A DNA stretch of 64,000 nucleotides. Source: a virus. A program made the translations under genes and the position numbers. The notes under the pieces were generated by a model. That model searched no databases, was not told the origin of the DNA, and saw only the letters and a list, made by a program, of their open reading frames with translations. The stretch is from positions 1 to 64,000 of IMG/VR virus record IMGVR_UViG_3300008108_000178; one strand, 5' to 3'. The first letter of the stretch is position 1. Every line of letters begins with the position of its first letter. Shown piece by piece: positions 3,732 to 54,372 of this stretch.

Positions 3732-3916
3732 GTAATTACACTTTTGATTACACAAGTAATGACGATCGAATAACAGAATTAGAAGCTCGCATAGATTATC
3801 TTGAACGAGAGAATGTTAGCTTGACCAATGAATTGTATGAGCTACACAATCGAATAGATGCTATCGAGGTTTGTAACGACATCAACACACTTAGAAACTT
3901 TACACTTGAAAAATAA
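3728..3916 (+). CDS. Small coiled-coil protein, 62 aa
   Basis: It is ATGA-coupled to the GTG-start gene and TAATG-coupled to the next. Residues about 14-48 (ITELEARIDYLEREN...) have clear leucine/isoleucine heptads, indicating a coiled coil. The function is unknown. Confidence 0.7.
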   Translation: MSNYTFDYTSNDDRITELEARIDYLERENVSLTNELYELHNRIDAIEVCNDINTLRNFTLEK

Positions 3917-4137
3917 TGGCACTATCTGAATCAGTTGAAACTAGTTTGAAAGAGGCAGAAGCATCACTTCGTAATGCTTTAGCCTATGCTGCACGTCAAG
4001 AACGTCCCCTAGTATGTAAAACTATCTCCACTCTCATTGCTGACATTGATCAGCTGATGAAGTTTGACAATTTGATTGATAAACTTGAAGAGAGGATGGA
4101 AGGTGGTAAAGGAAACTGGGGACCATTTAGTTCGTGA
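3916..4137 (+). CDS. Small helical hypothetical protein, 73 aa
   Basis: It overlaps the upstream stop (TAATG). The protein is almost entirely helical (SLKEAEASLRNALAYAARQ) and ends GNWGPFSS. It is the last gene of this coupled run before a roughly 90-bp intergenic space containing a CACTAT/ATAGTG dyad near 4178-4198. The function is unknown. Confidence 0.7.
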   Translation: MALSESVETSLKEAEASLRNALAYAARQERPLVCKTISTLIADIDQLMKFDNLIDKLEERMEGGKGNWGPFSS

Positions 4138-4227
4138 CTATTTGTTACGACATACTTAAGTAAACATTAAGAACTGGCACTATCTGGTTAAATAGTGTTA
4201 GGATTTCAACACATTCGGGATCACACG

Positions 4228-4389
4228 ATGACTCTTCCTCACAAGACAGAACAACTTTCTGAACAAGAGTGGTCAGAAATGACTGCACTCAAACGTGCAA
4301 TCAATCTACGTCCACAGTCTGTTGTTCCTGAAAAGATGGAAATGTTTACAGAATATCTTGTTCGTAGTTTGCGAGAGAAGGGTGGGTGA
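4228..4389 (+). CDS. Small helical hypothetical protein, 53 aa
   Basis: The start at MTLPHKTEQLSEQEW is preferred; an in-frame ATG 33 nt upstream lies in an intergenic leader that contains the dyad. The protein is helical, ending YLVRSLREKGG. It is followed closely by an intrinsic terminator. The function is unknown. Confidence 0.6.
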   Translation: MTLPHKTEQLSEQEWSEMTALKRAINLRPQSVVPEKMEMFTEYLVRSLREKGG

Positions 4390-4408
4390 CAATTTAAAAA
4401 CTGGCACA

Positions 4409-4433
4409 AGGGGGGTTTCGCACCCCCTTTTTT
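4409..4433 (+). terminator. Intrinsic terminator
   Basis: A GGGGGGT stem, TTCG loop and ACCCCC arm are followed by a T run. It closes the transcription unit upstream. Confidence 0.85.
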
Positions 4434-4468
4434 CATGTATATTAAGTGGGTCGAGAGGACACCACCCA

Positions 4469-4618
4469 ATGAAAACCACTTACATTTTCCTTGCATTCAT
4501 TGCCATCCTCATGTACAATGGTATGCTCGCCAAACGTGATGCTGAATTGTTCAGAGCATATGATAAAGTATGTGCTGAACTATCACAACAACACCCTGAT
4601 TGCAAACACGCAAAATGA
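4469..4618 (+). CDS. Small membrane-anchored or secreted protein, 49 aa
   Basis: Translation from 4469 gives MKTTYIFLAFIAILMYNG, a short N-terminal hydrophobic segment resembling a signal anchor, followed by a charged tail with two cysteines. A GAGAGGA purine run precedes the start. A longer in-frame extension upstream would read through the terminator and is rejected. The function is unknown. Confidence 0.65.
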   Translation: MKTTYIFLAFIAILMYNGMLAKRDAELFRAYDKVCAELSQQHPDCKHAK

Positions 4619-4761: not shown

Positions 4762-4961
4762 CTGTTATCAAAGATTGCTTCGATGATCCCACTGTCACAC
4801 TGTCAGTGTCAGCTCGGGAAGTTAAATTGATCATGCTTGCAATGAATCGTTTTAACGATGAATTGTATAAAGGTTCATATAAGATGGACGATGATACCAC
4901 ACAGCGGTGGGAGTCCATCATGGACTATGTGACAGATGAAGCACTGACACACGGTGCTTGA
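4758..4961 (+). CDS. Small hypothetical protein, 67 aa
   Basis: It is ATGA-coupled to the preceding gene. It is mainly helical (SAREVKLIMLAMNRFNDEL). Its 3' end overlaps the -35 box of the next promoter. The function is unknown. Confidence 0.65.
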   Translation: MTVIKDCFDDPTVTLSVSAREVKLIMLAMNRFNDELYKGSYKMDDDTTQRWESIMDYVTDEALTHGA

Positions 4962-4986
4962 CCTCACCCCCAACCTCCCCTATACT
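4958..4986 (+). promoter_or_regulatory. sigma70-type promoter
   Basis: TTGACC at 4958-4963 and TATACT at 4981-4986 have a 17-bp spacer. It drives the gene at 5015. The leader beginning about seven bases downstream carries the AGTCAACCA motif shared with two other leaders. Confidence 0.75.
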
Positions 4987-5014: not shown

Positions 5015-5473
5015 ATGGGCACCCGCTCCCGCATCGGCTATGAACTTCCAGACCACACTGTTGTTTCTGTTTACTGCCATTATGATGGTTATGTTGAGCA
5101 CAATGGTCGTGTTCTGGTTGAACATTACACTGACCGTGATGCGGTAAAAGAACTGATCGACGGTGGTAGCATGTCTTCGCTTCACACTACTCACCTGTGG
5201 GTCACTGCTGCTGTTCGTGACCAGGATGGTCAGATCGTGCGTGACATGGATGGCAACTGGGTGTATTCTCCCACTCGTGATGCTCAGCCTCTCTATCACA
5301 CTGAGCGTGGTGAAGAGCTTCAAATTGATCACACTAGCTTCGATGAGTTTGTTTCTGGTAACTGCAGCGAGGAGTATGCTTACCTGTTTGACCTAAACGG
5401 CAACTGGAAAGCATACAAAATTGGCTGGGGTCCAGTTGAGCGTATCGAACTTCCCAACTACGTTACTGCCTGA
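5015..5473 (+). CDS. Conserved phage hypothetical protein, MGTRSRIG type, 152 aa
   Basis: The start at MGTRSRIGYELPD lies 29 nt behind a strong promoter. Proteins with this N-terminus followed by SVYCHYDGYVEHNG recur in cyanophages and other large phages, to my knowledge without an assigned function. The body is beta-rich and acidic (TSFDEFVSGNCSEEYAYLFD). It has no membrane segment. Base usage is less AT-rich than the structural genes further right. It heads a unit that continues through small coupled genes. Confidence 0.8.
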   Translation: MGTRSRIGYELPDHTVVSVYCHYDGYVEHNGRVLVEHYTDRDAVKELIDGGSMSSLHTTHLWVTAAVRDQDGQIVRDMDGNWVYSPTRDAQPLYHTERGEELQIDHTSFDEFVSGNCSEEYAYLFDLNGNWKAYKIGWGPVERIELPNYVTA

Positions 5474-5476
5474 ACA

Positions 5477-5701
5477 ATGAACGAAAACGACATTACTATT
5501 TCTCTCACAGAATCTCAGCACGAACTGTTGAATGAGATTCTATGTCATGCTGTGAGTTCTGTGCAACTCGTGTCACCATATGATGACGGGATGTACGATC
5601 TGCCACTTGACAACCCGATCATTCAACGCTATACTATGATTGAAAATCTCAGGGAAATGTTCCTTGAGCTTTGGTCCGATCGATTTGAACTTTCCCGATG
5701 A
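5477..5701 (+). CDS. Small hypothetical protein, 74 aa
   Basis: It begins four bases after the upstream stop and is ATGA-coupled downstream. It is a helical protein (SLTESQHELLNEILCHAV). The function is unknown. Confidence 0.65.
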   Translation: MNENDITISLTESQHELLNEILCHAVSSVQLVSPYDDGMYDLPLDNPIIQRYTMIENLREMFLELWSDRFELSR

Positions 5702-8809: not shown

Positions 8810-9045
8810 CTAAGTTATCCTCTGTTGTAGTAACTCACGCTAAAGATCTTCTCACTATTACAGAGGATCTTAAAGTAAAACCAAAAGAAAATCTCTCCAC
8901 AAGAGAACATCAACTCTTCTGGCGTTATCATGGTCGATTCCCTCAAGAATTTACTCAAGCAATCATTGATTCCCTCCCACCAGAATATGATTTCGTTTCC
9001 TACAATCATCTCACTAATACACTGGAGGTCTGTCCTCATGTCTGA
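8806..9045 (+). CDS. Small hypothetical protein, 79 aa
   Basis: It is ATGA-coupled to its neighbour. It is helical with LFWRYHGRFPQEFTQAI, and no known motif is visible. Confidence 0.65.
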   Translation: MTKLSSVVVTHAKDLLTITEDLKVKPKENLSTREHQLFWRYHGRFPQEFTQAIIDSLPPEYDFVSYNHLTNTLEVCPHV

Positions 9046-9250
9046 TAAAGAATTAAAAGAACAAGAATCTGTATCTGATCAGTCAGATAATATTCTATCC
9101 TACATGCAAGATAGATTCTATCAACTAGTACAAGATGATCGTATGGAAGATGCTATCGCTATTGGGGATGAATTTATTGAATGGATGAAAGATGATGAAG
9201 ATGAAGTCTTCCTTTATTATAATGAACATGAACTAAAAGAATTACTCTAG
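9038..9250 (+). CDS. Small acidic hypothetical protein, 70 aa
   Basis: The start at 9038 (MSDKELKEQESVSDQ) has a GGAGG site nine bases upstream; an earlier in-frame ATG would overlap the preceding gene by over 100 nt. It is strongly acidic and helical (EFIEWMKDDEDEVFLYY). It is the last gene before the structured non-coding region. Confidence 0.65.
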   Translation: MSDKELKEQESVSDQSDNILSYMQDRFYQLVQDDRMEDAIAIGDEFIEWMKDDEDEVFLYYNEHELKELL

Positions 9251-9254
9251 AGTA

Positions 9255-9334
9255 TAGTTTTCCACAGGATACGGAACAATTGTGGAAAAACCTGTGGAAA
9301 ACTACTATATTAATAAATGTTTAAATTAATATAG
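9255..9334. other. DnaA-box-like cluster and AT-rich palindrome (candidate origin)
   Basis: Three copies of TTTTCCACA lie within 45 bp: 9258-9266 on the + strand, and 9281-9289 and 9293-9301 as the complement. TTTTCCACA is the DnaA-box sequence described for cyanobacteria. The outer copies form a perfect 14-bp inverted repeat (TAGTTTTCCACAGG at 9255-9268, its complement at 9291-9304). Directly adjoining is an AT-rich inverted repeat, CTATATTAAT (9305-9314) and ATTAATATAG (9325-9334). Arrangement and AT-richness suggest a replication origin or DnaA-binding regulatory site; this is inference. Confidence 0.55.
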
Positions 9335-9540
9335 TTGTGTGTTCTATTCCTAACATATAGTATAGAGTAAAACCGAGTTTAACAGTGGAAATGTTCTGAA
9401 ATGTACGGAGGTGATGTTGTCTTAGCACGCCTGCTACCGAAAGTCAAGCCAGTGTATGCCAGTTCTCAAAGTGGCACAGAGACCCTTGACAACTCGATGT
9501 CAACCACTCTTGTGCCAGTTCATTGAGTGTCACAGTGGGC

Positions 9541-9569
9541 TTGACAACCCCTAGGATCTCGGATATACT
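9541..9569 (+). promoter_or_regulatory. Strong sigma70-type promoter
   Basis: TTGACA (9541-9546), a 17-bp spacer and TATACT (9564-9569) match the consensus well. It is directed at the gene at 9699 through a roughly 120-nt structured leader. Confidence 0.8.
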
Positions 9570-9608
9570 AGGGTCATGGAAATCAAGGAATTCCAAGATT
9601 TCCGAAAA

Positions 9609-9665
9609 TCTCAAAAATCGAAAAAGTCTAAAAAGTCAAATTTTAAGATTTTAAGATTTTTGAGA
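9609..9665. repeat. Inverted repeat in leader of 9699 gene
   Basis: TCTCAAAAATC (9609-9619) is matched perfectly by GATTTTTGAGA (9655-9665), with A-rich and T-rich tracts between. It forms a long hairpin in the 5' leader. A similar A/T-tract hairpin precedes the gene at 10992. Confidence 0.6.
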
Positions 9666-9698
9666 AACTTAACATTTAACCTTTAACCATTAACAAAC

Positions 9699-9941
9699 AT
9701 GATTAACATTACTAACATTGATTCTAATGCAATTGCAACTATCAATGTAAATGAAAAAACCAGTACTGTAGGTATTACCTATGTTAGTAGTGGTAAAGAG
9801 TATAACTATGCTCTTAATGGTATTACTGTACAGGACTTTGTTAGTTCTGTGAACAATGTTATTGAAAACAACCAAAGTGTGGGTCGTTTCGTTAACAAAG
9901 CGATCCGAGAGGACCAGACGCTGCAGATTATGGCAGTTTGA
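9699..9941 (+). CDS. KTSC-like small protein, 80 aa
   Basis: The protein has IATINVNEKTSTVGITYVSS, then KEYNYALNGI and NNQSVGRFVNKAIRE. That resembles the KTSC pattern: a short beta sheet with a Tyr-containing strand, then a helix ending before S-x-G-x-x-x-N. A second protein with the same layout lies at 14113. KTSC domains are linked to RNA metabolism by association only. The strong promoter and structured leader suggest high expression. Confidence 0.6.
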   Translation: MINITNIDSNAIATINVNEKTSTVGITYVSSGKEYNYALNGITVQDFVSSVNNVIENNQSVGRFVNKAIREDQTLQIMAV

Positions 9942-9991
9942 GTCCTAAATATTACGAAACTGTAACAAAAAGGAACAGAAACTAGACAAAA

Positions 9992-10156
9992 ATGGCAAAA
10001 TCAACTCGTAAATACACAGAATCTTTTAAAGATCTGAACCTTGAAGATGACTTCGAGAACTTCGGTTATGAAGTTCAGAATCAGAAACGTTATTCAACTA
10101 GGAATAAACGTCAGACCAAATTCAAGGATTACGATGATCATGTAGACTGGGATTGA
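9992..10156 (+). CDS. Small basic/acidic protein, 54 aa
   Basis: An ATG frame (MAKSTRKYTESFKDLNLE) with a basic centre (RYSTRNKRQTKFKD) is preceded by an AGGAAC purine stretch at a loose distance. It ends just before an intrinsic terminator. The function is unknown. Confidence 0.65.
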   Translation: MAKSTRKYTESFKDLNLEDDFENFGYEVQNQKRYSTRNKRQTKFKDYDDHVDWD

Positions 10157-10164
10157 ATAACATT

Positions 10165-10187
10165 AGGGGCAGCAATGCCCCTTTTTT
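10165..10187 (+). terminator. Intrinsic terminator with GCAA tetraloop
   Basis: AGGGGCA (10165-10171), GCAA loop and TGCCCCT (10176-10182) are followed by five or more T. It ends the unit started at 9541. Confidence 0.85.
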
Positions 10188-10316
10188 ATTCACTTTCGAT
10201 TGTATATTATCTGGTGTCTGGTGGGATGACACCTAGCCAGTTCCAGAAGTGGCACACAGAGGCTTCCAGGTGGGTCTGGTGGCTGTATTGTTGATGAGTC
10301 AACCACAGACACCACG

Positions 10317-10481
10317 ATGAAATTCTTCTTCAGCTTCAAGGCTTTCTACTTTGCACTGAACTTCAAGAATCGTCACCATATGGAGGAGGCATTTGGTCTT
10401 GCCTTTGGTGATTATTACACTGGCTATTACTATGGTGATGGCTGGTGTGCTGGTAAGCTTGACGCCAACGGCTGCCTGTGA
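10317..10481 (+). CDS. Small aromatic-rich protein, 54 aa
   Basis: The ATG frame MKFFFSFKAFYFALNFKN is followed by GDYYTGYYYGDGWCAG. Its leader carries AGTCAACCA (10297-10305), shared with the leaders of the genes at 5015 and 10560. Its TGA lies within a 24-bp dyad. The function is unknown. Confidence 0.6.
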   Translation: MKFFFSFKAFYFALNFKNRHHMEEAFGLAFGDYYTGYYYGDGWCAGKLDANGCL

Positions 10482-10507
10482 CACCTGACAAGCTGGCACA
10501 TGAGGGA

Positions 10508-10535
10508 TAGACACCCTCCCGTCAGCTGCTATACT
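10508..10535 (+). promoter_or_regulatory. sigma70-type promoter
   Basis: TAGACA (10508-10513), a 16-bp spacer and TATACT (10530-10535) are followed by the shared AGTCAACCA leader (10541-10549). It drives the gene at 10560. Confidence 0.65.
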
Positions 10536-10559
10536 AACAGAGTCAACCAAAGACACATC

Positions 10560-10733
10560 ATGCAGAACTATTTCAACACCAGGATAGTTGAACGCCACCA
10601 GGATCACATTGATCTGAACAATAGCATGGCTGAGTTCTCCAATTTCATGCTATCAATGGAATCACTGCTGACTGAATCTGACAAGGTATGGTGGGCAGAC
10701 CAGAAGAAGTTCTTTATTTGTTACGACGTATGA
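10560..10733 (+). CDS. Small hypothetical protein, 57 aa
   Basis: The start MQNYFNTRIVERHQDH lies at the end of the shared leader; an in-frame extension to 10500 would cross the promoter. It is helical, ending VWWADQKKFFICYDV. It is ATGA-coupled to a small membrane protein. Confidence 0.6.
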   Translation: MQNYFNTRIVERHQDHIDLNNSMAEFSNFMLSMESLLTESDKVWWADQKKFFICYDV

Positions 10734-10858
10734 CAGTTGACACGCTTGGGTTCGGTGGCGATGCCGTCACCATGTTAGGATTCGTGGGGGTGACAGCCAC
10801 CCTCTTTATCCTTTTTACAATTTTTAGAAGTTATGCAAATTCACCAATTCGCAAATAA
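10730..10858 (+). CDS. Small single-TM protein, 42 aa
   Basis: An ATGA-coupled 42-codon frame has one hydrophobic helix at about residues 14-31 (MLGFVGVTATLFILFTIF) and a short basic tail. Size and coupling fit small phage membrane proteins. The function is unknown. Confidence 0.55.
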   Translation: MTVDTLGFGGDAVTMLGFVGVTATLFILFTIFRSYANSPIRK

Positions 10859-10875
10859 CTGAAAATTGTAAAAAT

Positions 10876-10930
10876 CTAAAAAAGTCAAAAAGTTAAAAAT
10901 TTAAAAAACTTAATTTTTTGACTTTTTTAG
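10876..10930. repeat. Perfect 16-bp inverted repeat (A/T-tract hairpin)
   Basis: CTAAAAAAGTCAAAAA (10876-10891) is matched exactly by its complement at 10915-10930. It lies in the 130-bp leader between the genes at 10730 and 10992, and is followed by TTAACCA-type short repeats (about 10960-10985) like those before the gene at 9699. Confidence 0.65.
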
Positions 10931-10991
10931 ATAATTAGATAAAGTTAATCTTTAAAGATTAACATTTAACCATTAACCATTAACATTCTTT

Positions 10992-11117
10992 ATGGAAAAC
11001 AACTTATTTCTTGAATATGTAAATCAAGAACTACAATACTATAAAGAATACATTGAAGACTATGAATACGATGATTATAGTATAGGAGAGAGTCTAGAAT
11101 ATACTATAGCTGAATAG
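10992..11117 (+). CDS. Very small acidic tyrosine-rich protein, 41 aa
   Basis: The ATG frame (MENNLFLEYVNQELQYYKE) ends inside a perfect 11-bp stem-loop. Its leader resembles that of the gene at 9699. It is strongly acidic. The function is unknown. Confidence 0.5.
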   Translation: MENNLFLEYVNQELQYYKEYIEDYEYDDYSIGESLEYTIAE

Positions 11118-11213
11118 CTATAGTATAGAATATAAAGAATAGAATAACATATTCTATTCTTTATATACAGTACAAAATATAAAGAATAAAACAGTGTTGT
11201 TTTATTCTTTATA
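11101..11213. repeat. Three consecutive perfect hairpins
   Basis: ATACTATAGCT pairs with AGCTATAGTAT (11101-11126, GAAT loop). A 16-bp stem follows at 11130-11145/11151-11166, then a 15-bp stem at 11178-11192/11199-11213. The last two share the core TATAAAGAATA and its complement, so they look like a diverged duplication. The pattern suggests mRNA 3'-end stabilisation or a termination array. Confidence 0.7.
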
Positions 11214-11244
11214 CAAACCACAGTTCTTTATTCTAATCACCAAA

Positions 11245-11457
11245 ATGTTTGACACTTCGATGATGATTTCCATGCTCCGTAAGGGTAGCAATGGCTTTGA
11301 AATCCTGCAGATTCTTGATACTATCACCGATGATTCGGTGGAGTCAGTATCACAAATTGTCAAGGTGCTAAGTGACACTATCTCAACAGCAGTAGATGAT
11401 ACTGAAGCTGAAACAGTTAGTTACAACAACCCTACTCTAGATTTCATCAAATTCTAG
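11245..11457 (+). CDS. Small hypothetical protein, 70 aa
   Basis: The start MFDTSMMISMLRKGSNG is used; an upstream in-frame ATG lies within the hairpin array and is rejected. It is a helical protein (DSVESVSQIVKVLSDTI) ending DFIKF. A perfect 24-bp dyad follows directly. The function is unknown. Confidence 0.6.
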   Translation: MFDTSMMISMLRKGSNGFEILQILDTITDDSVESVSQIVKVLSDTISTAVDDTEAETVSYNNPTLDFIKF

Positions 11458-11527
11458 TCAGTGTGTGCCACTTATCTTAGTGGCACATAATTCTCCCATT
11501 TTGAATTTGTCTGGGTTATTGTTGTTT

Positions 11528-11552
11528 TGTGGTTGAGAAAAACCACATTTTT
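11528..11552 (+). terminator. Intrinsic terminator candidate
   Basis: TGTGGTT (11528-11534), GAGAAA loop and AACCACA (11541-11547) are followed by five T. It lies upstream of the membrane-protein gene. The stem is weaker than the other terminators. Confidence 0.6.
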
Positions 11553-11573
11553 CACCTGAATCTTTTTCCACAA

Positions 11574-11909
11574 GTGAACAGCTACTCTTTCCCTCCTGCT
11601 GATGATCTGATCTCTGTATTTTCGGAGATAGATTATAACAAACTGATTCGCCAGTTTGTTATGCTTACTGCCACCGTGGTTGCTATCATCGTTGGCACAA
11701 CAGTTTGGTTTTACAACCGTGTCCGCCAATGGTATACAAACGGTGGTAAAGAACAGGTAATTAGTATTATCAACCGTTCGGCACTGTTTATCAACAATCG
11801 GACGGGCTTGATTGATAAGATCTCTGCACATGTAGTTAAGTTCTACAACCGTGTGGAGTTTGTATATCATTCTCTCACAGATTTGGCAGAGGGAGTATAT
11901 AAAATGTGA
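11574..11909 (+). CDS. Membrane protein with GTG start, 111 aa
   Basis: No ATG exists near the 5' end. I choose GTG at 11574 (VNSYSFPPADDLISVF) because an alternative GTG at 11529 lies in the terminator stem. A TM helix (LTATVVAIIVGTTVWFY) covers about residues 31-47, followed by a basic helical region. A TTTTCCACA box overlaps the start at 11564-11572. The stop lies in a 24-bp dyad. The function is unknown. Confidence 0.55.
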   Translation: MNSYSFPPADDLISVFSEIDYNKLIRQFVMLTATVVAIIVGTTVWFYNRVRQWYTNGGKEQVISIINRSALFINNRTGLIDKISAHVVKFYNRVEFVYHSLTDLAEGVYKM

Positions 11910-11986
11910 CACTAATACTAGTGGCACAGTAAAAGAGCACTGTGCCCAAAATCGTGTATTCTAGTTTCTGTTGAGTTAATTCTTCA

Positions 11987-12163
11987 ATGTTCGCTATCAC
12001 CTCCACTGAAACGTACAATGAGGCAAATGCAGAGGTATTTGCAAGCTTTGATGATGCAAACGATGCTGCATTTGACTGGTCTGTTGAGCTTAACGGTCGC
12101 CCCGTTATTGTATGGAAACTGACCCGTGCTAATCCTATCAAATGGATGAAAGTCACCGCCTGA
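11987..12163 (+). CDS. Small hypothetical protein, 58 aa
   Basis: The ATG frame MFAITSTETYNEANAEVF is preceded by the leader TAGTTTCTGTTGAG (11962-11975), repeated before the GP88-like gene. It is likely a beta hairpin plus helix (FDDANDAAFDWSVEL). The function is unknown. Confidence 0.65.
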   Translation: MFAITSTETYNEANAEVFASFDDANDAAFDWSVELNGRPVIVWKLTRANPIKWMKVTA

Positions 12164-12186
12164 TTCTTTACACAAACTCAAACGCC

Positions 12187-12360
12187 ATGTTCATCACAAA
12201 CTCTTTCGCTGATTCTGATAAAGCTTGCCAGATTGCGATGGCAAATTATAAGAAACAGATCGAACGTGAGAATCACTATCGCCAGCAAGTTCGGGATGGC
12301 ATAATACCAGCCCCAAACTATAATTATACTCAAACCTGGGATATTTCAGACAGAGACTAA
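12187..12360 (+). CDS. Small hypothetical protein, 57 aa
   Basis: The start at MFITNSFADSDKACQI parallels the start of the preceding gene (MFAITST...); an upstream in-frame ATG overlaps that gene. It is a basic helical protein ending in TQTWDISDRD. It is followed by a strong stem-loop. Confidence 0.6.
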   Translation: MFITNSFADSDKACQIAMANYKKQIERENHYRQQVRDGIIPAPNYNYTQTWDISDRD

Positions 12361-12367
12361 CAACAAT

Positions 12368-12387
12368 GGGGGAGCAATCGCTCCCCC
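12368..12387 (+). terminator. GC-rich stem-loop without T run
   Basis: GGGGGAGC (12368-12375), AATC loop and GCTCCCCC (12380-12387) form a perfect 8-bp stem. There is no T tract, so it may act as an mRNA 3'-end stabiliser rather than a classic terminator. Confidence 0.6.
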
Positions 12388-12423
12388 TATCTAACACAAA
12401 CTCATCGCCAATTCTTAACAACA

Positions 12424-12618
12424 ATGCAGCTCGCATTTGTCACCCCAAAATCTAACAAAGCCAAAAACAGATTCTCTAATCTAATGGAGAAACATCCTGG
12501 CTGCATAGTAGAACAAATCAAAGGCAATCGGGTGTTTTTGAGATCACAAAATGATCGCAACTTTTTCTGGGTTGATATTAATAATGACAGCGATTGGGGA
12601 ATAGTTTTTAATACATAG
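12424..12618 (+). CDS. Small hypothetical protein, 64 aa
   Basis: The ATG frame starts MQLAFVTPKSNKAKNRF and contains two beta-type segments (GCIVEQIKGNRVFLRSQ, NFFWVDIN). Its stop overlaps the first unit of a 27-bp tandem repeat. The function is unknown. Confidence 0.65.
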   Translation: MQLAFVTPKSNKAKNRFSNLMEKHPGCIVEQIKGNRVFLRSQNDRNFFWVDINNDSDWGIVFNT

Positions 12619-12723
12619 CAAACGTTATGTATTTCTATCATTTAGCAAACGTTATGTATTAATAATACATAGCAAACACTATGTGATAGAAATACATAGC
12701 AAACGCTATGTGATTATTAACAA
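12616..12723. repeat. Four-copy 27-bp tandem repeat (iteron-like)
   Basis: The core TAGCAAAC recurs at 12616, 12643, 12670 and 12697, exactly 27 bp apart. Each copy forms a dyad around AAAC, best in the fourth (ACATAGC/GCTATGT). The changes in the right arm (GTTATGT, ACTATGT, GCTATGT) show divergence between copies. The array lies in the gap before the GP88-like gene. Iteron or operator function is inferred. Confidence 0.75.
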
Positions 12724-12814
12724 CAATGTGGACAGTTGTGAGAGTGTCCACTATTCTCACCACTGCCCCTGTTATCCTGTATTGTAGTTTCTGTTGAGCC
12801 AATTCACCTCACAA

Positions 12815-13573
12815 ATGACTCTCAAATTCTCCAAGGGTAACGCTAAGCTTGGCACTCACACTTTGATTTTCAATCTACCTGCAGGCAAGACATGTCCTGG
12901 TGCTATGTATTGCAAATCGTTCGCCATTATTGATGAGAATGGCAAGCGTAAGATTCAAGACGGTGAGCATACAGAATTCCGCTGCTTTGCAGCATCATCG
13001 GAGGCACAATATGATGCCCCTTTCTATAATCGTAAAGAGAATCTAGAGACAATTGTAGAATATCTGCGAGTTTCAGTTGATTATGCTGCAGAGCAAATTA
13101 GCGTTGCTTTGAATCATCATCGGACCCGTAAAACCGAGCTAGTTCGTATACACGAGTCTGGCGACTTTTTCTCTCACGCTTACTTGCAAGCTTGGGTTAA
13201 AGTTGCACAAATCAACCCTGATTTGAAGTTTTATTGTTATTCCAAATCTCTGCCAATGTTCGTCGATTTCGGTATAGCAAACCTGCCCGATAATTTCTAC
13301 CTTACTGCATCTTACGGCGGTGCATTTGATAGTTTAATCGATGCTGGATTGTTCCCCCGTTACAGTAAAGTAGTGATGACCGATGATGATGCTAACTCGC
13401 TCGGTTTAGAAGTTGATCACGACGATACACACTGTTTTGGTAACAAACCGTTCGCACTGTTAGTGCACTCAACCCAGCCTAAAGGTTCGGCTTGGGGTAA
13501 GGCAATCCATGCACGCCGTAAGGCTAACAAATTCAGCGGTTACAGTAAGGGTAAGAAACCAGTGGCAGCTTAA
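12815..13573 (+). CDS. GP88-family protein, 252 aa
   Basis: The ATG at 12815 (MTLKFSKGNAKLGTHTL) is preferred to an upstream TTG. Recognisable GP88-family features are the N-terminal LPAGKTCPGAMYC (C27, C33) with FRCFAAS (C57), RIHESGDFF (residues 111-119), KFYCYSKSLP (about 138-147), DHDDTH (201-206) and FALLVHSTQPKGS. The family occurs in mycobacteriophages and cyanophages; I know of no proven function. The three conserved cysteines could bind a metal or cluster (inference). It has its own leader with the TAGTTTCTGTTGAG motif and its own terminator. Confidence 0.75.
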   Translation: MTLKFSKGNAKLGTHTLIFNLPAGKTCPGAMYCKSFAIIDENGKRKIQDGEHTEFRCFAASSEAQYDAPFYNRKENLETIVEYLRVSVDYAAEQISVALNHHRTRKTELVRIHESGDFFSHAYLQAWVKVAQINPDLKFYCYSKSLPMFVDFGIANLPDNFYLTASYGGAFDSLIDAGLFPRYSKVVMTDDDANSLGLEVDHDDTHCFGNKPFALLVHSTQPKGSAWGKAIHARRKANKFSGYSKGKKPVAA

Positions 13574-13585
13574 ATATAGAGAATT

Positions 13586-13611
13586 GGGGGCAAATCTGCC
13601 CCCCTTTTTTT
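13586..13611 (+). terminator. Intrinsic terminator
   Basis: GGGGGCA (13586-13592), AATC loop and TGCCCCC (13597-13603) are followed by a run of seven T. It ends the GP88-like gene. Confidence 0.85.
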
Positions 13612-13764
13612 ATACAAACTCCTAGGGTGTGCCAATTCCCGAACTGACCCAATTTTTCGGTTTTGTATCACCACGAACATCCGAGAGATCTGAGATCGTC
13701 TATATTAGTTTCAACGAGGGGGGGAGAGATCCACACCTCGTTATCACAAACTACCCCAAGGGTT

Positions 13765-14055
13765 ATGTTCAACTCCACTCGCTTTTTCTGCCTCACTGGT
13801 AACGCTGAGGCTCTGGCAGTTAGCCTCATCGAAAACCCCAAAATCATCGGTCCTAAGCGTGCACAAATGCTCTTTAATCTGGCCACTGAAGGTGAGAACA
13901 AAATAGGCCGAAATGCACTGCAAAAGTGTGCACAAGCTGCGAACCGCCATCGTGTTATTTTCAACGGCGAGGTTATGCACAACAATCGGGTGTTCAGCAA
14001 AGCATCAACTAAGCGCCTGATGTTCTGGGCTCAAAATAAGAATACCCCTGTCTGA
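13765..14055 (+). CDS. Hypothetical basic protein, 96 aa
   Basis: The start MFNSTRFFCLTGNAEAL is preferred; a longer frame from 13663 crosses a leader with the TATATTAGTTTC motif at 13701-13712. The protein is helical and basic (KRAQMLFNLATEGENKIGR, KASTKRLMFWAQNK), compatible with nucleic-acid binding. It is unrecognised. Confidence 0.65.
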   Translation: MFNSTRFFCLTGNAEALAVSLIENPKIIGPKRAQMLFNLATEGENKIGRNALQKCAQAANRHRVIFNGEVMHNNRVFSKASTKRLMFWAQNKNTPV

Positions 14056-14070
14056 GTTAGCATCACAAAT

Positions 14071-14087
14071 GGGGGCAATCTGCCCCC
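14071..14087 (+). terminator. GC-rich stem-loop without T run
   Basis: GGGGGCA, ATC loop and TGCCCCC lie 15 bp past the preceding stop. It resembles the terminator at 13586 but lacks the T tract. Confidence 0.55.
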
Positions 14088-14112
14088 TTCCAAAATCTCA
14101 CAAATTCCCAAA

Positions 14113-14385
14113 ATGTCTGTTTCTTTCAACATCAGCGATTCCATGCTTTATCGCCAGTTTAGTGTAGAAGAATCCTCCGCTATCTACTGCATTTCAGTGT
14201 TACATAACAACGTAACTGTTGCCTACCATAGCAACACTGAAAAACAGTACATTTTCAGGGCTAGCGATATTTTTGCCCCCGTCATTCGTGACGCCATTCG
14301 TCACTTTAACCCCGCCGAAATTAGCATCGGCAAGCTGATAGCCAAGGCACGTAAAGTAGGCGATCTGGAAATAATAAATATCTGA
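14113..14385 (+). CDS. KTSC-like protein, 90 aa
   Basis: The layout follows the protein at 9699: strands (YCISVLHNNVTVAYHS), a Tyr-containing strand (KQYIFRASDI), a helix, then EISIGKLIAKARKVGDLEII. The two are probably distant paralogues by this pattern. It is terminated at 14419. The function is unknown. Confidence 0.6.
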   Translation: MSVSFNISDSMLYRQFSVEESSAIYCISVLHNNVTVAYHSNTEKQYIFRASDIFAPVIRDAIRHFNPAEISIGKLIAKARKVGDLEIINI

Positions 14386-14394
14386 CACTTTCCT

Positions 14395-14410
14395 AGATAT
14401 AATTATATCT
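14395..14410. repeat. 16-bp palindrome
   Basis: AGATATAATTATATCT is a perfect palindrome between the preceding stop and the terminator. It may be an operator or part of an extended terminator structure. Confidence 0.55.
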
Positions 14411-14418
14411 AAGATCTT

Positions 14419-14447
14419 GAGGGTAATTATAATTACCCTCTTTTTTT
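14419..14447 (+). terminator. Intrinsic terminator
   Basis: A perfect 22-bp palindrome with arms GAGGGTAATTA and TAATTACCCTC is followed by seven T. Confidence 0.85.
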
Positions 14448-14474
14448 ATGTTTTGAAATAAAATATAATTTAAC

Positions 14475-14815
14475 GATTTGCAGAGTATTATTAATACATA
14501 ACATATACTAAGTATTAATAATACACAGTATATGCAGATTAATTAGAATCAACAATTAATCATATTTGCAGAATATTAATAATACATAGCATATACAATG
14601 TATTATTAATACATAACGATTGCAGATTATTAATAATACAATAAAATCGTAATTTCACAATAATTAGAATTAACAATAAATTACGATTTTATTGTATTAT
14701 TAATAACAATCAAATAGTATTGCAAAGTATTAATAATAACAGCTAATTACGATTGCAAAGTAATTATAATTAACAGTTAATCGTAATCGTTCGTTTATTA
14801 TAATAAACGATAAGC
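14475..14815. repeat. AT-rich repeat and palindrome block, no gene
   Basis: A non-coding stretch of about 340 bp is built from degenerate repeats. TGCAGA or TGCAAA occurs at about 14479, 14533, 14567, 14621, 14721 and 14754, each followed by an A/T palindromic segment. Between the fourth and fifth lies a perfect 29-bp inverted repeat (arms 14627-14655 and 14678-14706, 22-nt loop). An 18-bp palindrome (CGTTTATTATAATAAACG) closes the block at 14792-14809. It lies at the boundary between the structured region and the late genes. Confidence 0.7.
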
Positions 14816-14865
14816 GTCCCCAAAAAAGTACCTTCTTTCTAAGCTATAAACGTTTCCCAGAGCCC

Positions 14866-14873
14866 GATAAATA
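14866..14873 (+). promoter_or_regulatory. Candidate T4-type late promoter
   Basis: GATAAATA lies about 77 bp upstream of the gene at 14950. It resembles the T4 late -10 element TATAAATA and is the first such element before the structural genes. Confidence 0.5.
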
Positions 14874-14949
14874 TTAAAAGGAATTTCCAAAGTGAAATCC
14901 CCCGATTCCAAAAAAATTTCCCAGAAAATTTTTCGCTAAAAAAGTCGCC

Positions 14950-15721: not shown

Positions 15722-15868
15722 ATGGCAAAGCGTCCTTCATTTACTAATAGCAATCTGATCGAGTCGAAGCCCAAGAAGTCCCGTCAGGGAAATGGGGCAC
15801 ATACGAAGTATGCTGCTACGAGTCGTAATGGTGCTCGTAAGCGTTATCGTGGTCAGGGTAAGGGCTGA
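15722..15868 (+). CDS. Small highly basic protein, 48 aa
   Basis: The ATG frame MAKRPSFTNSNLIESKPKK ends NGARKRYRGQGKG. The lysine/arginine richness suggests RNA or DNA binding. A TGAGG ribosome-binding sequence precedes the start, and the gene has its own promoter and terminator, suggesting stand-alone expression. Short proteins starting this way are known to me from cyanophages; the function is unknown. Confidence 0.7.
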   Translation: MAKRPSFTNSNLIESKPKKSRQGNGAHTKYAATSRNGARKRYRGQGKG

Positions 15869-16180: not shown

Positions 16181-16582
16181 TTGTCTACTGTGCCGCAGTT
16201 TCAAACATTTAAGGATTTAAATGTGACATTCAAGCCTCATCCTATTACTGGTGATTTAATTACTAGTAAGGATGAGGCTGCTGTTAAACAGGCCATTGTT
16301 AATCTTTTGTTAACTAACAAAGGTGAACGTTTATTCAATTCTCAGATTGGATCAGATATTCCTAGATTATTATTTGAACAATTAGATTATGGTGTAGCAG
16401 CCCTGGTCCAATCTGAGATTAAAAACGTATTAACGGATTACGAACCTAGAATTAATATTATATCGTTAGAAGTTATACCAAATTTTGATGATAATGGATT
16501 TGATGTTGGATTGGAATTTGAGATTATAGGTAGAAACGATATTCCACTCAACGTAGAATTCTTTTTAGAGAGAACTCGATAA
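16181..16582 (+). CDS. 25: Baseplate wedge subunit gp25
   Basis: gp25 is the lysozyme-like (GPW/gp25 family) subunit at the inner end of the baseplate wedge, touching gp6 and the sheath. The length is typical (130-134 aa). Conserved parts include VTFKPHPITGDLIT, AIVNLLLTNKGERLFN and the C-terminal FEIIGRNDIPLNVEFFLER. The start is unusual: no ATG exists, and the choices are TTG at 16181 or GTG at 16190 (giving MPQFQTFKDL). No clear ribosome-binding site precedes either. The gp6 gene follows without a gap. Confidence 0.9.
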   Translation: MSTVPQFQTFKDLNVTFKPHPITGDLITSKDEAAVKQAIVNLLLTNKGERLFNSQIGSDIPRLLFEQLDYGVAALVQSEIKNVLTDYEPRINIISLEVIPNFDDNGFDVGLEFEIIGRNDIPLNVEFFLERTR

Positions 16583-45900: not shown

Positions 45901-48900
45901 GTAGATGTATTAGCAAACGGTGCTTCTGGCACTTCATTAGATGCTGCTTATCTTATTGCTAGAAATAGAGATTTTATTGCTGATGAAGCATACGGAAAAA
46001 CTAAAGCACTATATCCATCATTGAATCTTTCAAATATCAATGAAAGAAAGTGCCGTAGAGATATTAATTTTATTATTAGTGGATTAATAAGAGACATAAT
46101 TCTTGGTGGTAATGCTGGTATTGTAACTGCTGTAGAATCATATTTTAGTGGTTCTGTATTAACTGGCATTCCCGAGGCACAAAGAGATGAAACTATCTAT
46201 GCTTTCAATCAAGTAAGAGATCTTTGTATCCTTGCTATGAGAAATTGGAAGACTGGAACTAATGGCACTGGATCTGTTTATACTCCATTGCATACACCAA
46301 TTCCATTATTTACAGATAATACAATTTTAATTGATCCAAATGTAAATAAATGCGCCACTATAGTTTCAAATATCACAACATCATTTGCGTTGCTTGAAGA
46401 TATTTTAGATGGAACTATTTCTCCTGGAGCAACAACAAAAACATTTGGTACATTATTTGATACTGTAAATATCGTAACTTACCCAGATAGCGTAATTTAT
46501 GATGCAGATGGAGTTGTTTATACTCCACGTTCTGACTATGATGACTATCCAATTATTGAAGCGTCTCCATACACACAGAACGCATCTGTAATTTCATTCC
46601 TTGGTGGCGGTGGTGCTCTTATTGATGGTTCCAAAGTCAAGCAACCAAACTGTCCTTTCCCTGGTCTAGAACTTGATGGTTCTGCAACCTTCCCGAATCA
46701 GGGTAAATCGATGGTTGCCGCTGCATTCACTATCGTATCTTTTGGTGGTACTGGTTATAAAATTATCAACGATGGTTATGTTCAGCTTGTTTCTGTATTC
46801 GTTATCTTCTGTGCTGATGGTGTTCTTGCAGAATCTGGTGGATATGCTTCAATTACTAACTCAGCTACAAACTTTGGTATCTTTGCGTTAAGAGCAAGAG
46901 GATACAATGATTTTGCTTACTCATTTGACGTTGGCACTATTACTAACGTGTCATCAACACCAACTGGAAGAACAATATTTACTGTTGATGGTCTTGGAAG
47001 AGAGCCACTTGAGCATTATGTTGTAAAAATTGATGGTTATGAAAATGTAAATCCAGATATTGAATACTTTATTGATACTGTTGGTGCAGTTACTGTTGGT
47101 CCTCCTTTCTCTGCTCAAATTACCATTGAGTCTGGATCTGGAGGAGGAGCAGAATTTAAGTCAATTTCTACTGGCCAAGCTGTATCATCTTCTACATTAA
47201 CTGGGAAAACAATTAGATTACATAGACCATCTATTGTTAACTCTTCCTCACATACTTGGGAATTTGCTGGTTCTGGTACAAATTATAATGCTCTACCAGA
47301 AAATGGTGGTGTTAAAATTGAAGCATACGAACAAGTATCTCAAGACTACGGGCGTGTTTATGTTTCTGGTACTGATGAACTTGGTGACTTCAAGGTTGGT
47401 ACATTTGCTCGTATTGAAAACAGAACTGGTAATATTACTTTCACTGGTACAGTTACCATTTCGGAAGTTGAATTCCTTAAGTTAAAAGGTGGCGACGTTG
47501 TTGTTACTGGTTTCGATGCTTCAAATACTCTTGGAGGTGCTAATTCAACTGACTCTAAACTACCAACTCAGAAGGCAGTTAGAGACTATATTACTAATAA
47601 CTTAGGCCCATACATCAACAAGCCATATTCAACAAATGCTGTTCCTAGAGCACTTGTTGAACTGACAGATTCTGGCAAGATTTCAATTGATCAGATTCCA
47701 CCACTAAGACCATTTAGTGTATTTACAGTTCCAGACCAAACATCTCGTCTTGCTATTGAAGGAGCACTTGCTGGTGATATTGCGATTCAGCAAGATACTT
47801 CAACTTCTTACATTCTCAATAATGATAATGGAAGTTTATTCGTATCATTTAATATAGATCCAACTTTACAATTTACTACTAATGATGTATTTACTGGTAG
47901 TATTTCTGGAGGAAAAATTCAGGCAACTGAATATAGACAGGGAGTTGTTTATCAAATTAATTTAACTGACCCAGGATCTGGATATACTACAACTCCAGTT
48001 ATAACTATTACTGGAGGAAATCCACAAGCAGGTGCTATTCAAGCAGCAGCTACTTGTACAATTGCTAATGGTCAAGTTGTTACTGTTAAAATAGTATCGT
48101 TTAATGGATTGATCGGCGGTAAAGGATACACAACTCCTCCAACTGTTACTTTCTCTGCTCCATCTGGTGCTGGCACACAAGCAACTGGTGTAGCATTAAT
48201 TGAAAGTAGATTATACGGAGATATCGTCAATAATATTAAAATGGGAGAGGCTGATACAATTCAGTCAAGTGATATTCCAGCAGAAACTATTGAAATCAAT
48301 AGAGTTGTAAATACCTCTGCTTCTAATAATAATAACTGGGTATCGCTTTCAACAAATCAAATTGCTGCTTCTGATATCACATCTGGGGTTATTGCTACTT
48401 CTAGACTTGCTAATAACTCAGATGCTGCAAACTCTTTCTCATTCTTGAGAGGTGACCAAGCATATGCTCCAGTAGTTCAATCAATTAAAGGAGCAGAGAA
48501 TAGATATTTTGCCAAATTATATTCACAAGCATCTAGTGGTTCTTCTCAATTATTATTTACAACAAATTCAAATACTTTAGTTGGTCATACAGTTGTAAAT
48601 AATCTTACTGGTATTCAAGCAAATACTAGTATCAATGGTGTTATAACTTCTGGTGGTATTACCACAGTATCATTAAACAATCCATTAACATCTACAATAG
48701 CAGCTGGAACTATTATTGAATTTGAAAGAGGTGCTTCACCACTTGTATTTGAATCTTCATTTACTCAAGGTGGATTTGTTGATAGTATTGTTATTGCTAG
48801 TGGTGGTTCTGGATTTACTAATGGTCAGTATTTTGATGTACCACTAACTGGTGGTTCTGGAACAGGTTTAAGATCTAATATTATTGTTTCTAATGGAATT

Positions 48901-53114: not shown

Positions 53115-53876
53115 ATGTCAACACTAAACGTAAATAACATAGAATCTTCTAGTGGTACTACTATTTTAATACCATCTGGAAATAGTTTATCCTTAGCTGG
53201 AACTGTAGTAAATTCATCTACTCTTCCACCAAATCCATCAGGACAAACAAATCAAGCTTTATATACAAATGGTTCCGCTGTTTCTTTTAATGTTACAGGA
53301 CCAAGAAGTATCCAAACATTTACTAGCAGTGGAACTTGGACAAAGCCAAGTGGCATTAGTAAAATATGGGTAATGTTATGTGGGGGTGGAGGTGCAGCAT
53401 CTGCTCACTCAGAATCTGGAGGTGCTGGAGGATATTGTGAGAAACTAATCGATGTTAGTTCAGTATCATCTGTTCAAGTTACGATTGGAGATGGCTCTAC
53501 TTCATGGACATATTATTCTGGTGCTGCAGGAGGAGGTGGAACTAGTTCTTTTGGTACTTATATGAGTGCGACAGGAGGTAGAGGCGCAAATACTTCTCAC
53601 CAACATTGCGGTGGTCTTCCTGGAGTAGGTACTGGCGGAGACTTGAATGTTTATGGTGGTGGTGGCACGGGTCATATGTCATGGGCATGTATGAAAGGTG
53701 GTTCATCTTATTTTGGAGGAGCTGGAGTAAGTGGCCATCCCCAAGGAGGTAATTTTGCTCATAGTTATTGGGATAGATCAGCTCCTGGTTGTGGAGGAAC
53801 TGCTGGGTATGATAATAACTCAACATTAGGAGCTTATGGAAGAGGTGGATTGTGTATTATCTACGAATATGCGTAA
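53115..53876 (+). CDS. Glycine-rich adhesin-like tail protein, copy 3, 253 aa
   Basis: It starts two bases after the previous stop. It shares with its paralogues SGTTILIPSGNSLSLAGTVV, HQHCGGLPGVGTGGDLN and YFGGAGVSGHPQGG. It carries its own loops (MSWACMKGGSS; YWDRSAPGCGGTAGYDNN). The stop is at a late-promoter-like AATAAATA. The tryptophans in the loops are possible substrates for the halogenase encoded nearby. Confidence 0.75.
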   Translation: MSTLNVNNIESSSGTTILIPSGNSLSLAGTVVNSSTLPPNPSGQTNQALYTNGSAVSFNVTGPRSIQTFTSSGTWTKPSGISKIWVMLCGGGGAASAHSESGGAGGYCEKLIDVSSVSSVQVTIGDGSTSWTYYSGAAGGGGTSSFGTYMSATGGRGANTSHQHCGGLPGVGTGGDLNVYGGGGTGHMSWACMKGGSSYFGGAGVSGHPQGGNFAHSYWDRSAPGCGGTAGYDNNSTLGAYGRGGLCIIYEYA

Positions 53877-53883
53877 ATAAATA
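53876..53883 (+). promoter_or_regulatory. Candidate T4-type late promoter
   Basis: AATAAATA lies 28 bp upstream of the gene at 53911, with a GGAG-type ribosome-binding site further down. It may drive the assembly gene and the oxygenase run. Confidence 0.5.
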
Positions 53884-53910
53884 GTTTATATAAACAGGAG
53901 ATTTACAATA

Positions 53911-54372
53911 ATGAAAAGGGTTTTACTTGATTTTAGAGGAGTTATTAACGATGTTGTTGAGGTTGGATCTGAATTTGAAATTTATGATGGTCCAGACACA
54001 ACAATTAAATGGGTTTTATGTCCACATGATGGAGTAGACGGCACTTGGCATTGTCAAGATGGTGAATGGATTTCTCCAGATAGAAAAAAAGATGTAAATT
54101 ATGATATGCAAAGAAAAATTGCATACGGTACATTAGAAGAACAATTGGGAATGCTTTATCATGATATAAAATCTGGCAATTTACAAGATGGCGAATGGAT
54201 TAGAATGCAAGATAATGTAAAATCTGCTATTATCTCACAAAGACAATATGAATCAGATCCAGCTAATATTGAAGGAAAGGTGGATCTAAAGTATCATACA
54301 GAAACAGATCCTGCATGGAATCATTTACCAGCAGAAGAAATTATTCCCCCATCATTTGATCACTTAAAATAA
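53911..54372 (+). CDS. Tail-fibre-assembly-like protein, 153 aa
   Basis: A CAGGAG site precedes the ATG. The pattern MQRKIAYGTLEEQLGMLYHD followed by GEWIRMQDNVKSAI resembles the QR.xYxSxxxQLDxxxH...VKxxxP motif of small phage tail proteins near fibre genes. A role as chaperone or fibre-associated protein is inferred. It contains tryptophan-rich DGTWHCQDGEWIS at about residues 49-61. It precedes the halogenase gene. Confidence 0.6.
   Translation: MKRVLLDFRGVINDVVEVGSEFEIYDGPDTTIKWVLCPHDGVDGTWHCQDGEWISPDRKKDVNYDMQRKIAYGTLEEQLGMLYHDIKSGNLQDGEWIRMQDNVKSAIISQRQYESDPANIEGKVDLKYHTETDPAWNHLPAEEIIPPSFDHLK

Follow-up and report, generated by a model that had tools for sequence, protein, structure and literature searches.

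We analyzed a 64,000-nucleotide stretch of viral DNA (here called the window; positions 1 to 64,000 of the 64,766-base IMG/VR virus fragment IMGVR_UViG_3300008108_000178). It carries a series of 24-bp dyads that probably represent the activator-bound upstream recognition element of early promoters in T4-like cyanophages. The window comes from a T4-like cyanophage of marine origin, whose relatives are the T4-like phages of Synechococcus and Prochlorococcus. One of its virion proteins had matches in cyanophages only, and Synechococcus phage Sf-FR1 was the best alignment partner of the region 8900-14900. The dyads are located within a block of many small open reading frames (ORFs) upstream of gp25 and gp6 (ORFs at 16190 and 16583).

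The full consensus of the dyad is TGTG[C/a]CA[G/C]TTnnnnAA[G/C]TG[G/t]CACA. In total, 11 matches with up to three mismatches were present in the window against 1.86 expected, and none of 100 shuffled sequences reached this number. When any base was allowed at position 5 of the half-site, nine matches with at most two mismatches were obtained (2.5 expected). Additionally, a weight matrix was trained on 311 unique dyad sites from other IMG/VR contigs, with the window sites kept outside the training set. At a score of ≥15 it recovered nine strong sites (4385, 4928, 9455, 9511, 10233, 10477, 11464, 11905 and 13628), where none was expected from Markov-shuffled sequence. The six copies between 9455 and 11928 listed by the sequence-only reading were all found at their positions, and both the shuffles and the matrix place them above chance. 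Its choice of 11464 as the best copy holds as well (no mismatch, top score of 31.5); the copies at 9455, 9511, 10477 and 11905 have one mismatch each and 10233, with a poor left arm, has three. The described placement at gene boundaries was confirmed: 10477 and 11905 overlap TGA stop codons, and a TAG lies shortly before 11464, at 11455-11457. Two good dyads were missing from that list, namely 4928, which had been overlooked, and 4385, whose right arm had been taken for a lone half-site at 4401. The other supposed half-site, at 4173, was not recovered as a dyad, and the half-match at about 13627 turned out to be a weak full-length dyad at 13628.

The evidence for a promoter element comes from the spacing. 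Around the 311 viral sites we searched for -10 hexamers (at least 5/6 matches, TA..T, both directions counted) and for TTGACA (at least 5/6). The -10 hexamer started 28, 29 or 30 nt past the dyad end in 23, 122 and 49 cases, respectively (194 in total), against a background of about 1-3 per position, and TTGACA was found exactly 7 nt past the dyad end in 66 cases compared with about 3. Within the whole viral collection, a dyad followed by N28-30 and TATAAT occurred in at least 120 stretches; the control with N60-62 gave 3. In the window, seven of the nine dyads had a -10 box at a gap of 28-29 nt, all on the + strand, which is the gene strand, and shortly before a plausible ORF start. With the transcript start taken as 7 nt past the -10 box, the dyad would span approximately -65 to -42, and its centre would lie at about -53.5. 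Since the distance to the -10 box is fixed, we read the dyads as the putative upstream part of sigma-70-type promoters, marking transcript starts and not ends, and an activator is favoured over a repressor or a terminator.

The -35 region of these promoters is poor. Among 185 promoters, a set chosen by the -10 box, 133 matched TTGACA at no more than three of six positions, yet the match was slightly better than in the control. Judged as sigma-70-type promoters, they have a strong and fixed -10 box, and a -35 box at 16-18 nt is recognisable in a minority only. Furthermore, 34 of the 185 gaps between dyad and -10 box contained a hairpin of at least 5 bp (7 in shuffled gaps), in five of them followed by a T-run (none in the shuffles). 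At 53915 of P-SSM2 a terminator-like hairpin is located exactly at the -35 position, as at 4409-4434 of the window, and a few IMG/VR promoters are built likewise. A two-way arrangement as a general rule was discarded; a good -10 box on both sides was present in 26 sites compared with 41 expected under independence. A near-consensus sigma-70 promoter lacking a dyad (TTGACA-N17-TATACT, 5607-5635) was also seen in the same gene block of the window.

A motif search in relatives, as suggested by the sequence-only reading, showed the dyads to be widespread and conserved; the condition under which that reading would have been refuted, no further copies and no conservation, was clearly not borne out. 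Exact dyads were present in the cyanophages Syn9 (2), S-PM2 (3), P-SSM2 (6), P-HM2 (3) and P-TIM40 (5), and 18 of these 19 strict sites fell within the block of small genes that precedes the baseplate genes (gp25/gp6). None was found in T4, Ma-LMM01 or Syn5, and the reversed control pattern was absent from all phages tested. Nearly all matrix sites of P-SSM2 and P-TIM40 had a perfect or near-perfect TATAAT at 29-30 nt. Syn9 carried four near-identical promoters CGTGTATTCTATA at 46338, 48607, 51049 and 53045, each with a dyad at equal distance. The promoters turn with the genes: the sites 37626 and 38254 of P-HM2 had -10 boxes on the minus strand and lie beside minus-strand genes. The T4-type major capsid protein was identified on 9 of 24 long dyad-bearing IMG/VR contigs and was not found on the other 15, which are partial records. 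Three minus-strand dyads with a perfect TATAAT were also present at 66336-66591 of P-SSM2 (NC_006883), where all annotated genes are on the plus strand; they possibly belong to an unannotated antisense or non-coding transcript.

Based on these data we propose that a dimeric protein would bind the two inverted half-sites as double-stranded DNA just upstream of the -35 position. The bound protein (about -65 to -42, centre about -53) would assist the host RNA polymerase, carrying the primary sigma factor, at promoters whose -10 box is good and whose -35 box is mostly poor. That its effect is activation appears likely. A dimer is suggested by the dyad symmetry, and the location upstream of gp25/gp6 points to early expression of the dyad-bearing genes. 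The protein is probably encoded by the phage. In that case virions would deliver it or it would be produced very early, and since early promoters fire first, its source would have to be either the virion or promoters without a dyad. In its full form, the proposal that T4-like cyanophages bring along in the virion, or produce immediately, a sequence-specific dimeric activator for TGTGCCA[G/C]TTnnnnAA[G/C]TGGCACA at -53, by which the host polymerase is steered to early promoters, is put forward tentatively and may well prove wrong. To our knowledge, such a take-over strategy is not known in T4.

Several points weigh against activation by such a protein. A fixed distance could serve a repressor too, and two of the nine window dyads (9455 and 13628) have no -10 box at the right place. 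Moreover, the early ORFs of the window showed no convincing transcription-factor family, and no binding protein was found there. A MazE/AbrB-like family of 54 amino acids was rejected as the binder: it is acidic and is absent from the complete dyad-bearing genomes of Sf-FR1 and P-HM2. The 'transcriptional regulator' gp230 of Syn9 was rejected as well. It had no Pfam match and occurred in 462 phage records, two of them named for Caulobacter, and thus nothing ties it to the dyads. A Phd-like family, phrog_375, was considered as a further candidate.

Two small protein families of these gene blocks were recorded in addition. The MazE/AbrB-like acidic family occurred in 321 cyanophage records and is frequently encoded in the early block, for example in Syn9 (53843-54016; 3843-4016 of locus L158) and in P-TIM40 (9540-9704 of locus L261). 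Just upstream of gp25, the window encodes a very basic protein of 48 amino acids (15722-15868, phrog_516), with matches in 444 phage records, each of them named as a cyanophage or a marine virus.

The best-surviving alternative concerns the origin of the protein and not activation itself: the phage may exploit a host transcription factor. Unless the factor is injected, no phage protein is available yet when early promoters have to fire, and there is a precedent for a cyanophage using a host factor, since host PhoB acts at some promoters of S-PM2d (PMC10976474). If a host regulator recognised this site, one would expect it to have targets in the host; it counts against this alternative that the strict dyad was found in only 4 of 300 genomes of the host-related cyanobacterial family, approximately the chance level. 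A dyad with a -10 box occurred in one of 121 host-family genomes, where the match lies inside a longer unrelated inverted repeat. A host regulon was also sought among contigs of cellular genomes and rejected: matches were scattered over unrelated phyla near chance level, and the cyanobacterial ones were located in ordinary host contigs. With the dyad at chance level in hosts, a phage protein is favoured. A host protein with looser specificity is possible; on balance we consider a host factor rather unlikely, although it is the strongest competitor of a phage-encoded one.

Less probable still is that the dyads are repressor operators, at which a dimeric protein made during infection would shut off the early promoters. 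A palindrome beside a promoter suits a repressor equally well, the tandem copies (9455/9511 and the arrays of loci L065 and L071) resemble cooperative operators, and some dyad promoters have a good -35 box, such as TTGACA-N17-TATACT after 9511. However, the site is located upstream of the -35 region and not over the -35 and -10 boxes, and its spacing to the -10 box varies by only about 1 bp among diverged promoters, which contact with the polymerase explains better than blocking. The main argument is that the -35 box is mostly weak or replaced by a hairpin, since a promoter that tolerates a hairpin at this place would need help from upstream. The sequence-only reading had described the dyads as operators of a dimeric protein. 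A DNA site at gene boundaries is upheld, as the arms do not covary and the half-sites are conserved in many phages; the operator itself is not, because the fixed -10 box favours an activator.

That the dyads act as RNA hairpins, terminating or processing transcripts where operons end, is very improbable. Several copies overlap or follow stop codons and a 9-bp stem is possible at 11464. However, the arms showed no covariation among the 311 viral sites: Watson-Crick or GU pairing of pair 7/16 was rarer than expected by chance (98 versus 143), and pair 4/19 was at chance level. As for intrinsic terminators, neither pairing support for a stem nor a T-run after the dyads was found, and separate terminator-like hairpins stand beside the dyads (10165-10182, 13586-13603 and 4408-4430). 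The missing covariation therefore argues for a DNA site. The eighth base of the two half-sites tends to differ as well, with G/G or C/C on one strand in 172 of the 311 dyads (loci L009-L128) compared with 128.7 expected (standard deviation 7.9). Perfect palindromes are thus avoided among the viral dyads, which suggests that the bound complex itself may be asymmetric. Finally, chance or low-complexity recurrence, which the degenerate copies 10233 and 13628 might bring to mind, is practically dismissed by the shuffles, the matrix count, the N60-62 control and conservation in dozens of other viruses.

A novel element that regulates the early genes of Syn9 was reportedly described by Doron et al. 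in 2016, with similar results for P-TIM40, and is said to be conserved in T4-like cyanophages. The dyad shares with it the phage group and this conservation and, judged by its location, probably the tie to early genes. The sequence of the Syn9 element was not found in the literature searched. Since the dyad promoters of Syn9 and P-TIM40 each lie in one gene block, the dyad or part of it is probably this already known element. Added here are the exact dyad, the spacing rule, the comparison of DNA site and RNA hairpin, the test for absence from hosts, the forms with tandem dyads or with a terminator in place of the -35 box, and the positions of nine sites in a phage that has not been cultured.

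Among known systems, the late promoters of P2/P4 have a dyad near -55, a weak -35 box and the host sigma-70 polymerase, and are activated by the phage-encoded zinc-finger protein Ogr/Delta. The dyad described here resembles them, with its centre at a similar distance upstream of a poor -35 box, but the P2/P4 promoters are late and not early, and the Ogr/Delta site is shorter (TGT-N12-ACA). No zinc-finger activator of the Ogr type was seen in the early ORFs of the window. CRP (TGTGA-N6-TCACA) and NtcA (GTA-N8-TAC) are commonly centred at -41.5 or -61.5. CRP at class I/II promoters and the cyanobacterial NtcA are likewise dimeric activators that bind an inverted repeat ahead of a weak -35 box; the dyad differs from both in its half-sites (TGTGCCA and TGGCACA), its N10 spacer and its centre at about -53. 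In T4, the MotA box at -30 replaces -35 contacts. An upstream box proposed for this role in a T4-like phage on host polymerase is similar; however, the 24-bp dyad is unlike the short MotA box or the late box TATAAATA, and dyads are absent from T4. Few marine viruses are as abundant as the T4-like cyanophages, and the dyad bears on how they seize host transcription without MotA/AsiA of T4. The exact spacing rule allows early promoters and operon starts to be called in uncultured phage genomes, and the dyad may serve as bait for isolating the activator.

The window sites, all on the + strand, are arranged as follows. The dyad GGTGACAATTTAAAAACTGGCACA (4385-4408, score 23.2, E ~0) is the predicted upstream element of a promoter with the -10 box TATATT at 4438-4443, 29 nt past the dyad end, and an ORF start at 4469. 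The gap is filled by the terminator-like hairpin GGGGG-TTTCGCA-CCCCC-TTTTTT (4409-4434) at the would-be -35 position. The dyad TGTGACAGATGAAGCACTGACACA (4928-4951, score 21.3) matches TGTGNCA-N10-TGNCACA exactly and is assigned, with TTGACC at 4958 and TATACT at 4981-4986 (gap 29), to the ORF starting at 5015. A terminator-like hairpin (10165-10182) is located just upstream of the dyad CTAGCCAGTTCCAGAAGTGGCACA (10233-10256), whose left arm is degenerate; its -10 box TATTGT lies at 10286-10291 (gap 29) before an ORF start at 10317. Dyad TGTGACACCTGACAAGCTGGCACA (10477-10500) is followed by TAGACA at 10508, TATACT at 10530-10535 (gap 29) and an ORF start at 10560. The best dyad, TGTGCCACTTATCTTAGTGGCACA (11464-11487), precedes TATTGT at 11517-11522 (gap 29) and a probable GTG start at 11574. 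For TGTGACACTAATACTAGTGGCACA (11905-11928, score 28.9) the -10 box TATTCT at 11957-11962, within CGTGTATTCTA, has a gap of 28 and the ORF starts at 11987; this promoter is kept in S-T4 and S-SKS1 and shared with Syn9 early promoters. The weak ninth dyad TGTGCCAATTCCCGAACTGACCCA (13628-13651, score 19.1), preceded by a terminator-like hairpin at 13586-13603, has no -10 box at the usual distance.

The dyads TATGCCAGTTCTCAAAGTGGCACA (9455-9478) and TGTGCCAGTTCATTGAGTGTCACA (9511-9534, score 29.7) form a tandem pair. The promoter-proximal copy is followed by TTGACA-N17-TATACT (9541-9569, -10 box at 9564-9569, gap 29), and the upstream copy has TTGACA 7 nt downstream and no -10 box. In an alignment with seven relatives, these had a single dyad directly followed by the -10 box, and the window had about 55 extra bases including the second dyad; we therefore regard 9455 as the likely upstream member serving the one -10 box at 9564. 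Across the orthologous promoters of the eight phages the dyad and the -10 box are kept and the remainder drifts. Tandem dyads with a period of 57-63 bp were also found at 89-382 of locus L065 and 1641-1934 of locus L071, with TTGACA 7 nt downstream in most units.

Directly upstream of the 9455 dyad, the alignment of the eight cyanophages revealed a conserved block GTTGTCTTAGCACGC...CGAAAGTCAAG (9406-9450, + strand). It is as invariant as the dyad, its region matches 30 Synechococcus phage records, and it may be bound by a second protein at this one promoter. At 9600-9690 and 10816-10990, short ORFs are preceded by leaders with many A- and T-runs and repeated AAAAAGTC/GACTTTTT and TTAACATTTAACCATTAACA motifs, and similar leaders follow the orthologous promoters in other cyanophages.

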